Of a DNA stretch of 48,559 nt, positions 1 through 39,375 are shown piece after piece. The stretch is taken from the NCBI GenBank assembly GCA_015061525.1, contig SUWK01000013.1, positions 1 to 48,559 of the forward strand, written 5' to 3'. The notes below the pieces were generated by a model. It saw only the letters and a program-made list of their open reading frames with translations. It was not told where the DNA came from and did no database searches. The DNA is from Lentisphaerota bacterium (GTDB lineage: Bacteria; Verrucomicrobiota; Lentisphaeria; Victivallales; Victivallaceae). Positions within the stretch are counted from its first letter, which is position 1; every line of letters begins with the position of its first letter. Position numbers and translations under genes: made by a program.

Positions 1-249
1 CGTGTGAAGCGCAGCGTTGCTGCATGAAGCGTTTGCCTGCGGCAAACATGAAGCACTTGCTTTGCAAGTATGATGCGGCGTATTTTTGTGAGCGGCACTC
101 TCCGTATGTTTCCGTACACATCCGTACTGATCCGTACAAATAAAGCGTTTGAAAAAATCACGGCAGAGTTGCGAGGTGACCACCAACAGTTCTATTAATG
201 TGAAAAATCTGTTCTCTCTTTTTTCCGGATCAAACTGGATACTTCTCAT
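1..249 (-). CDS. Pseudopilin (prepilin-type N-terminal methylation domain), 3' part beyond the window
   Basis: An ATG at 249 with GGAG nine bases upstream opens a frame of 83 codons that runs without a stop to the window edge. Residues 16-24 read FFTLIELLV, the prepilin peptidase/N-methylation motif of type IV pilin-like and type II secretion pseudopilins. Directly after LLVV the protein does not continue with the usual hydrophobic helix but with [12 protein letters not shown], encoded by a repeat also present in the pseudopilin gene at 38236-39345. It follows a DUF4434 gene by 43 bases and is probably cotranscribed with it. By analogy with the complete copy, a second leader and the true pilin body should lie to the left of the window. 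Function is inferred; only the leader and insert are visible. Confidence 0.75.
   Translation of the reverse strand, partial: MRSIQFDPEKRENRFFTLIELLVVTSQLCRDFFKRFICTDQYGCVRKHTESAAHKNTPHHTCKASASCLPQANASCSNAALHT
4..76. repeat. Cluster of three mini-hairpins with heptamer spacers (inside copy 1)
   Basis: Three perfect stem-loops with 3-base loops follow one another: GCAGC-gtt-GCTGC (11-23), GTTTGCC-tgc-GGCAAAC (31-47) and ACTTGC-ttt-GCAAGT (55-69). They are separated and flanked by a conserved heptamer, GTGAAGC or ATGAAGC or ATGATGC, at 4-10, 24-30, 48-54 and 70-76. The same cluster occurs at 39088-39160. Confidence 0.85.
101..140. repeat. Four tandem 10-bp units (TCCGTANNNN)
   Basis: Units start at 101, 111, 121 and 131, each TCCGTA followed by four variable bases. 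The period of 10 is not a multiple of three although the stretch is inside an open reading frame, so the periodicity is at the DNA or RNA level rather than the protein level. Repeated at 39185-39224 in the second copy. Confidence 0.85.
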
Positions 250-292
250 AATTTCATTTCTCCTTTTCATTCAATATTTTCATACAGAATAA

Positions 293-29060: not shown

Positions 29061-30014
29061 TTATAATACCGTAATTGAAGCAACTTTTACTATCACGGCA
29101 CCATTATTTCCGAAACGACCGGTATATTTCCCGGAAACTTTGACCTTTTTGTTTTCATTGGCACTCAACAGTGCCGGATCATCGGCAAAAACAAATCCGA
29201 GATTGAATCCGTTGGGTGCTGAAAGCAGAACATAAGAAGTTTCTTTCGTCGTTCCGAACTTCCATTTGGTAAGGATACCTTCCAACGTTACATCATCATT
29301 AACCGCAGGTGCGGCTTTTTCCTCTTTGGCTGGTGCGGGTGTCTCTGCGGCGGCAGCTTTCTCTTTCACCGGAGCCGGAGTTTCTGCGGCGGCAGCTTTC
29401 TCTTTTACCGGAGCCGGAGTTTCTGCGGCGGCAGTTTTCTCTTTCACCGGAGCCGGAGTTTCTGCGGCAGCAGCTTTCTCTTTCACCGGAGCCGGAGTTT
29501 CTGCGGCGGCAGCTTTCTCCGTTTTCTCTGCTCCAGGCACGATGACATTGCCGTTTTCATCAAATTTTGACGGATCATATTTCACCAGAAACGCCGCCGC
29601 GTACACTCTGACACCGGCAGATTCCGGAACTGCGATACGCACCCAGCCGTTGCGCCGCTCATCCATCTTTCTCACCACCGTCCCTTTGGGCAGAGTTCCC
29701 AGACAGGGAGCCTTGACACTCATCGCAGTCCGCATATTCAGCTCACCGGAAAGCACTCCGTCTTTACCGATACGTGCTTCAGAAACGTAAACGGAGAGAT
29801 TTTCCGGCGCACCGATCTCCACCCAGTTATTGACCACCCGGTAGATCTTCACTTCCGTCTTGTCAGCGATCTTCCCGACTACCGGATTCTGAAGTCCCGG
29901 CCCCAAACGCAAGTTGAGCAAATCAGCATTGACCGTACCGGAAACGGCAGCAGTTTCCGCAGCTCCGGCAGCGACTGAAGCTGCCGCCAAAAGAGCAAAA
30001 AACAATTTATTCAT
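29061..30014 (-). CDS. Secreted SH3-domain protein with 13-residue tandem repeats
   Basis: 317 residues from the ATG at 30014, which has GGAG ten bases upstream; a longer frame adds 11 residues but no better site. A signal peptide (about 1-20, ending GAAETA) precedes two SH3b-like domains. The first has LLNLRLGPGLQNPVVGKI; the second has LNMRTAMSVKAPCLGTLPKG. A linker of five 13-residue repeats, KEKAAAAETPAPV, leads to a small OB-like domain (VTLEGILTKWKFGTTKETSY). Such bacterial SH3 domains often bind peptidoglycan. Its role here is unknown. It diverges from xerC/D. Confidence 0.75.
   Translation of the reverse strand: MNKLFFALLAAASVAAGAAETAAVSGTVNADLLNLRLGPGLQNPVVGKIADKTEVKIYRVVNNWVEIGAPENLSVYVSEARIGKDGVLSGELNMRTAMSVKAPCLGTLPKGTVVRKMDERRNGWVRIAVPESAGVRVYAAAFLVKYDPSKFDENGNVIVPGAEKTEKAAAAETPAPVKEKAAAAETPAPVKEKTAAAETPAPVKEKAAAAETPAPVKEKAAAAETPAPAKEEKAAPAVNDDVTLEGILTKWKFGTTKETSYVLLSAPNGFNLGFVFADDPALLSANENKKVKVSGKYTGRFGNNGAVIVKVASITVL
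29332..29526 (-). repeat. Five tandem 39-bp repeats inside the SH3 protein gene
   Basis: The core TCTGCGG recurs at 29344, 29383, 29422, 29461 and 29500, an exact 39-bp period with few substitutions. The units encode the Ala/Lys/Pro linker. Such arrays change copy number by slippage, so linker length may vary between strains. Confidence 0.9.
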
Positions 30015-38235: not shown

Positions 38236-39345
38236 TTAAAATTCAGCCCAATTCTCCACATTGTGACCGACACCGAAGGTGTTGTCGCCATTGATCAGCA
38301 TGATATTGCCGTGCCGGGTCTGAACCGAACCGTCACATGTGGTGACATTGATACCTGCCGATGCCGGAATATCCGCTTCACCAGCATAGGGTCCGGGATT
38401 GCCTCCGGAAGGATGACGATAACCCAAACGGTAATAACAAACATAATCGGCAAAAGCGTAATATGTATCACCGTCAACGTGTTCCGTAAACAGGATCGTG
38501 CTGCTGGCTTTGTTGATCGCCGAACCCTTGCAGCTGCCCTCTTTATACAAATTGGCATTGAATGTGGGTGCAGTTTTGGCGACCACCGTGATATTGGCGA
38601 TATAGCTCATGCCGTCTTTGCCGCCGGTATATTCGCCTTTGCCAGCCGGATTGGAAGCACTCGGACACTGGAACATCGGCACTTCTGCAGTTTTGTAAAA
38701 CAGCGATTCCCCTGTTCCCGCCTTGCCTTGCGCACTGCTGTACCCAAGATAAGGCAGCAATTTCGGTGCCCAGCCATAGTAACTGCTGTGGACATAGTAA
38801 TCGCAATCGTTCAAATACTGGGCATTTGCCAAGCCCAACTGTTTCATATTGTTGACACAGCTGGCACTGCGCCCGCGTTCACGGGCAGAGTTGAGTGCCG
38901 GAAGCAGAATTGCAGCCAGAATCGCAATAATGGCGATGACCACCAGCAATTCGATCAAGGTAAATGAGTGTGCGGGGGACAAGGAAAACTTTTTTTCACG
39001 GGAAAAAAAGTTTTCCTTTTCCCCCGCGCCCCCTTTCTCTTTCAAAAAAAGCGGGATACTTTTTGATGATAAATCATGCTCCGCCGTGTGAAACGCAGCG
39101 TTGCTGCATGAAGCGTTTGCCTGCGGCAAACATAAAGCACTTGCTTTGCAAGTATGATGCGGCGTATTTTTGTGAGCGGCACTCTCCGTATGTTTCCGTA
39201 CACATCCGTACTGATCCGTACAAATAAAGCGTTTGAAAAAATCACGGCAGAGTTGTGAGGTGACAACCAATAATTCGATCAAAGTAAATTTCCTGCTGAT
39301 AAAATTGAATAGCTGACTGCTTTTTAATGTACTGTGCCTTTTCAT
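38236..39345 (-). CDS. Pseudopilin (DUF1559-type) with a duplicated leader split by an in-frame insert
   Basis: 369 residues from the ATG at 39345 (GGAG nine bases upstream; a TTG three codons earlier is less likely). The motif FTLIELLVV occurs twice. After the first (about residues 20-28) comes an insert of about 100 residues starting TSQLCRDFF; then the second copy runs into the normal helix [15 protein letters not shown]. The rest is a typical Lentisphaeria/Planctomycetes pseudopilin: [28 protein letters not shown], and a C-terminal [11 protein letters not shown]. The -1 residue before either Phe is not Gly (Lys and Ser). Which leader is processed, or whether the product works, is unclear. 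It is in an operon with glycosidase-like genes. Confidence 0.85.
38970..39029. repeat. Large in-frame hairpin within the pseudopilin gene
   Basis: Left arm 38970-38997 and right arm 39002-39029 pair over 28 positions with one mismatch and one G-T pair around a 4-base loop; the inner 15 bp pair perfectly (GGAAAACTTTTTTTC against its complement). It encodes [10 protein letters not shown] and lies just before the second leader. Confidence 0.9.
39085..39264 (-). repeat. Leader-inserted repeat, copy 2
   Basis: Matches 1-180 with three differences. It contains the same three mini-hairpins (39095-39153) and four 10-bp units (39185-39224). Its 5' edge, in coding sense, falls directly after the LLVV codons of the first leader. 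Confidence 0.9.
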
Positions 39346-39375
39346 TCTTTTCAACTCCTTTTTTTGATCAAAAAC

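Follow-up and report, generated by a model that had tools for sequence, protein, structure and literature searches.

The start of this contig raises the question of why an array of small hairpins joined by a fixed heptamer should lie within a translated reading frame, and of how it came to be there. The window, by which we mean the whole stretch of 48,559 nucleotides that was analysed, is one complete contig (G000:C28) of a Lentisphaeria MAG of 2.83 Mb in 122 contigs. The array belongs to an insert of about 230 bp, which we call module A, in a prepilin-type gene, and the letters given for the array are those of the non-coding strand of that gene. There is a second copy in another prepilin gene of the window, and the features concerned are as follows.

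1-270, minus strand: 5' part of a prepilin-type gene, with leader, FTLIELLV and module A in one open frame, cut by the contig end inside the insert
4-10, plus strand: heptamer GTGAAGC
11-23, plus strand: hairpin H3, stem GCAGC (5 bp), loop GTT
24-30, plus strand: heptamer ATGAAGC
31-47, plus strand: hairpin H4, stem GTTTGCC (7 bp), loop TGC, which recurs in intergenic arrays
48-54, plus strand: heptamer ATGAAGC
55-69, plus strand: hairpin H5, stem ACTTGC (6 bp), loop TTT
70-76, plus strand: heptamer ATGATGC
101-140, plus strand: four TCCGTANNNN units with a 10-bp period, TCCGTA being at 101, 111, 121 and 131
148-182, minus strand: outer end of module A, with a half-site match to a serine-recombinase element (4 mismatches in 28 nt at 148-175)
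181-204, minus strand: FTLIELLV codons of the host gene, the left, B-type half-site (17 left junctions)
38236-39354, minus strand: second prepilin gene (PF07963 and PF07596), in which two FTLIELLV motifs enclose module A and part of module B, all in frame
38941-38964, minus strand: last FTLIELLV, followed by the prepilin hydrophobic helix
38974-39025, minus strand: long A/T-rich hairpin of module B, found in inverted orientation beside intergenic arrays
39088-39224, plus strand: second copy of the heptamer-hairpin array and TCCGTA units, differing at 39093 and 39134
39232-39259, minus strand: outer end of the second module A, with a recombinase half-site match (3 mismatches in 28 nt)

The window also has a palindrome-containing 52-bp unit in two copies near the contig end (48368-48471), which resembles other hairpin blocks of the genus, and a tandem repeat of 39 bp with 4.5 copies within an open frame (29344-29519).

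The hairpin array and its relatives outside pilin genes

The original prediction described three perfect hairpins of 5-7 bp with 3-base loops that alternate with RTGAWGC and are followed by four 10-bp TCCGTANNNN units, and all of these are present where they were placed. It also counted three differences between the copies, with one inside a heptamer at its variable place, and this count needs correction: between 4-140 and 39088-39224 there are two differences, at 9 and 50, both of them inside heptamers but away from the variable first and fifth bases, and the following one, at 172, is beyond the stretch. As had been said, no difference between the two window copies breaks a stem. The probability of the 18 stem pairs by chance is about 1e-11 as a naive product of base composition. 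Folding of the whole stretch is not better than that of shuffles (z -0.28 for DNA and -0.95 for RNA of the other strand). A DNA uptake sequence was considered and rejected, the heptamer alone not being enriched in the window (29 seen and 35.5 expected).

A search for the heptamer-hairpin pattern beyond pilin genes, which had been put forward as a check, did find it in many species of the genus, following genes and tRNAs, in arrays where GTGAAGC or ATGAAGC links five hairpins. The genome of the window has 43 occurrences of GCTTCAY-N9..24-GCTTCAY and none of the reversed pattern. In the retrieved loci there are 105 distinct heptamer-heptamer spacers, with 40 distinct stem sequences that share one heptamer, and 79 of the spacers have a perfect stem of at least 4 at both ends (shuffled mean 0.5, maximum 4). 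The neighbours were looked at for 16 arrays of our own choice, using plain open reading frames rather than annotation, and for most of them a converging gene has its stop codon about 130-145 nt off, and a long A/T-rich hairpin lies in the space between. ARAGORN gives a tRNA in 13 of 20 loci, in most of them close to the array; these loci were chosen mainly from Gut-1-type matches, and L110, from the genome of the window, got no ARAGORN tRNA call. A long A/T-rich perfect hairpin (GGGGGAAGGGAAAAACTTTTTTT...) lies right behind stop codons beside arrays at L143, L144, L146, L149, L152, L154, L158, L159 and L254, and the inverse of this intergenic hairpin is the core of prepilin module B. Arrays of 3-4 TCCGTANNNN units are also found apart from module A in other species (L130, L134).

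With regard to selection on structure, which the hairpins had been taken to indicate, the compensatory changes proposed as its test are there. Outside pilin genes the heptamer is fixed and the stems vary, and 11 of 34 base pairs have double changes that keep the pairing, with 3.3 expected and none of 500 shuffles reaching 11. In the intergenic copies 95.0% of stem cells pair, compared with 92.4% when shuffled and 28-39% in slid versions. The covariation was scored on a hand-written five-helix structure derived from the same copies, because the RNAalifold structure for alignment A1 mixed linkers with stems and was dropped. The copies inside pilin genes preserve their stems less strictly. Among the 39 pair cells that have changed, 16 no longer pair, 13 still do so after a change on one side and 10 are double changes. 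The 10-bp period had also been read as a structural signal, and in this case the reading does not stand, as the TCCGTA units are nearly constant in module A and no structural role was seen for them. A covariance model built from 34 intergenic copies (R1) gives 84-88 bits on the pilin copies, 52-53 bits on L148 and L160, which are pilin-type arrays of other species, and matches tRNA-linked or tRNA-like arrays (L110, L243, L273) at 37-46 bits, and has matches in 23 of the 34 genomes of the genus, with a maximum of 71 in G029. The array may well act as an RNA or DNA structure.

The closest named family is Gut-1 RNA (RF01706), which aligns with the arrays hairpin by hairpin, both being made of three or more consecutive hairpins with UGAA-containing linkers between them (PMC2864571). 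The gathering score of the Gut-1 model is 50 bits, whereas L142 reaches 32.2 and the pilin copy L012 26.1, and with a best score of 39.0 bits in the genus none of its 34 genomes is over the cut-off, so we do not claim membership. At E 0.01 there are matches in 20 of the 34 genus genomes and in 2 of 14 control genomes, and at E 0.001 in 16 of 137 genomes of the order, none of them over the cut-off. Among 387 genomes of the phylum one, G278, is over it (57.0 and 54.4 bits), and second to it comes a genome of the window's genus. The G278 loci have the heptamer GTGAWAT, with the same variable fifth base, and R1 gave no match to them. The genus arrays differ from Gut-1 in that the heptamer ends in GC and not AT, in scores of at most 39 bits, in high copy number and in having one kind inside genes. 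In Weinberg 2010 (PMC2864571) Gut-1 is listed from human gut samples only. Rfam miRNA matches on the long hairpins were taken as chance.

In-frame modules in prepilin genes

Read on the coding strand, the gene runs from the leader through FTLIELLV, module A and a second FTLIELLV to the usual helix, module A being in frame after the first motif and ending in its own. There are 19 strong copies of module A in the genome of the window, some shortened or cut by contig ends, and all copies that we read are in prepilin-type genes. The fetched loci include 82 prepilin genes with the full signal, of which 53 have a single motif. In the other 29 an uninterrupted frame runs across several FTLIELLV motifs (two in 24 genes, three in four and four in one). 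The motif pattern used for this count leaves out two more genes with an open frame, in C2 and C13, whose first motif is a variant. Modules B, C and D behave in the same way and stack on one another. Among the module-bearing genes that contig ends leave uncut two are broken, that in C66 by a frameshift and that in C18 by a larger element. The relatives of the insert (74 loci) are all in Lentisphaerae/Lentisphaeria MAG records, and wherever the record title gives a source it is herbivore gut (e.g. sheep, roe deer, yak). In several cases module A of another species has only 1 to 3 differences per 227 positions. No orthologous empty site could be read between species, the contig of the one close relative of the window prepilin (G025, 89% over 133 residues) starting in the mature part, and all-against-all comparison of the mature parts gave no informative pair.

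The junctions are exact. At 17 left junctions with different flanks the third codon positions of FTLIELLV vary from gene to gene, which indicates that the left motif is the host's own, and the constant part begins at about CACAACWCTGCCG. At 12 right junctions FTLIELLV is near-constant up to CTATTGGT and the flank differs immediately after. Random crossing-over within the shared motif would have given element-type left copies, and the element-type GAGCTATTGGT is absent from all 17 left copies listed, so the exchange was at a core and not at random within the homology. The left and right junctions together place it at the GT core next to FTLIELL.

Prepilin leaders are cut off by a prepilin peptidase, and one prepilin peptidase gene is present. 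As the module ends in FTLIELLV the peptidase site is restored, and everything before it would therefore be leader, so that the module peptide is expected to be cleaved off by the host enzyme. The insert is thus probably harmless through rebuilding the signal sequence of the gene. Most of these genes have a residue other than the usual G before F. Distinct changes among module A variants comprise 82 nonsynonymous, 40 synonymous and 2 stop, and coding constraint between variants is weak.

The leaders themselves have hairpins. Among first-motif leaders 25 of 78 have a perfect hairpin of 8-24 bp with the gene's own FTL codons as its 3' arm (shuffled mean 0.08), a count that excludes motifs following a module end. 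The stems of such leader hairpins in the genome of the window (for example at L091, L103, L071, L072 and L049) follow the synonymous codons of the gene, and some are tandemly duplicated.

A serine-recombinase element at the same point

The prepilin gene in C18 of the same genome, which already has module B, holds at the same insertion point an element of 6,024 bp (L332, G000:C18:37046-43070). It encodes a protein of 587 aa with PF00239 (38.8 bits) and PF07508 (40 bits), that is a large serine recombinase, and also a small resolvase and a homologue of a nuclease (SNase). At each end of the element is a half-site, the two forming an imperfect inverted pair around GT, and the prepilin frame is intact once the flanks are joined. 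It is known that elements of large serine recombinases may have their attachment site in a conserved gene, and the C18 element shares with them the two domains, the inverted half-sites around GT and the splitting of a conserved coding motif. The differences are that the attachment site is here multi-copy, and that module A has one half-site and rebuilds the gene. The C18 element, which has no copy of the array, is the only one found with a recombinase gene and two half-sites round a core, giving n=1 from one MAG for elements that bear a recombinase.

The right half-site of this element links it to module A. When it was used as a 28-nt query, the two best matches in the window were the outer ends of both module A copies, with 3 and 4 mismatches, the next best match having 8 and the reversed control 11. 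Modules A, A2 and D have local scores against this half-site that are above those of all 4000 random 40-mers. For modules B, B2, C and C2 the match to the half-sites is weak or absent. In module A the half-site is at the left end only and the right end is the second FTLIELLV, so module A falls short of being a complete integrative element; when right-end sites beside the helix were scanned for, C18 alone had one. We know of no serine recombinase that joins a B-P' circle of this kind to attB. The viral contigs gave no relative of the recombinase and no half-site, and in phage records identity to it is at most 24.9% among the matches listed. Recognition by a transposase or recombinase had been suggested for the hairpins, and of this the recombinase is implicated. 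The recombinase-type site, however, lies outside the hairpins, at the insert's outer end (about 148-182). We infer that the family of recombinases represented in C18 moves, or has moved, the modules.

Origin of the modules and their meaning

The explanation towards which we lean is recombinase-type insertion at a prepilin site that is present in many copies, with the insert tolerated on account of the regenerated signal and carrying a Gut-1-like array within it. Module A would have a single point of entry, between FTLIELLV and VIAII, where strands would be exchanged at the GT core in the manner of large serine recombinases, the prepilin signal acting as a multi-copy attachment site. With a recombinase half-site at its start and its own FTLIELLV at its finish, it would leave the gene with an intact in-frame prepilin signal, and the added peptide would join the leader, to be removed by the host prepilin peptidase. 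The array inside module A would be one member of a dispersed family of structured repeats with Gut-1-like architecture. A fuller form of this explanation, which we put forward only tentatively, is that a lineage of serine recombinases uses the signals of a large prepilin family as attachment sites, and that short derivatives bearing Gut-1-like arrays stack when further sites are created and are removed from the protein by the prepilin peptidase of the host, each insertion repairing the gene that it hits because the derivative carries a copy of the signal.

Several other explanations have to be set against recombinase-type insertion. It is possible, if somewhat doubtful, that the array is a noncoding RNA of Gut-1 type made from one strand and that its location in pilin genes is incidental. 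The order of hairpins and UGAA-containing linkers is that of RF01706, true Gut-1 is present in the same phylum and the stems have double changes; however scores throughout the genus are below the gathering score, up to 71 copies per genome is more like a repeat than an RNA gene, and the pilin copy is translated in one open frame. Spread of the modules by plain homologous gene conversion among the ~80 paralogous prepilin genes, with a recombinase now unneeded, we consider unlikely. The motif on which it would depend is common to all the hosts, and 53 single-motif genes are found beside the 29 with several, but the tract ends are exact at the 17 left and 12 right junctions, the left copies are never element-type, and near-identical modules (1-3 differences in 227 bp) are present in other species.

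It is less probable still that the insert is useful as a longer, repeat-built leader, with pilin regulation through mRNA hairpins near the signal codons. The hairpins in 25 of 78 other leaders would be in keeping with such a role, but coding constraint on the insert is weak, as judged by the 82, 40 and 2 changes given above, and 53 of the 82 genes do with a single motif. Finally REP elements with RAYT are clusters of short hairpins between genes, and the original prediction proposed that a RAYT be looked for in the genome. Mobilisation of REP-like elements by such a Y1 transposase recognising the hairpins would fit with short hairpins in intergenic clusters and with the one Y1_Tnp gene in the genome of the window, but is very improbable indeed: Y1_Tnp is present in 8 of 23 array-bearing genomes of the genus and in 3 of 11 without arrays, it is absent from the array-rich G017, G012, G031 and G014 and broken in G029 with its 71 matches, and here the linker is fixed and the stem sequence free, with 40 distinct stems. 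The sole Y1_Tnp-like gene of the window's genome (34.8 bits) is in L108 (G000:C110:1-5000), and its neighbourhood looks by eye to be that of a phage or plasmid.

A known case close to the modules is that of the Rickettsia palindromic elements, RPE (Ogata 2000, 2002), which a review (PMC10969869) describes as short palindromic repeats found in frame in protein genes and also outside genes. On that description the likeness is in-frame insertion into open reading frames together with copies outside genes. Unlike RPE, for which insertion into unrelated genes is characteristic, the modules are at one exact point in one gene family; they also regenerate the motif, have several hairpins joined by a fixed heptamer and have a recombinase half-site at one end. 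Work on reverse-complement triplets (PMC12985086) is, as far as the portion consulted goes, not relevant. We did not find the insert described in open-licence literature on Victivallis/Lentisphaerae pilins, repeats, Gut-1 or a serine recombinase attB in pilin.

If this explanation is true, the modules would be a second clear case, after Rickettsia, of palindromic repeats inside protein genes, and one in which the insertion point is defined, there is a candidate enzyme and the reason for tolerance can be tested. The orphan Gut-1 RNA family gains relatives from many genomes of one known group of bacteria, and the places of these are defined: behind tRNAs, behind genes and inside prepilin leaders. 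The assembly breaks at prepilin genes in these genomes are explained. In its fuller, tentative form the explanation would also mean that selfish DNA has a route by which to hide in genes, bearing with it Gut-1-like hairpin arrays.
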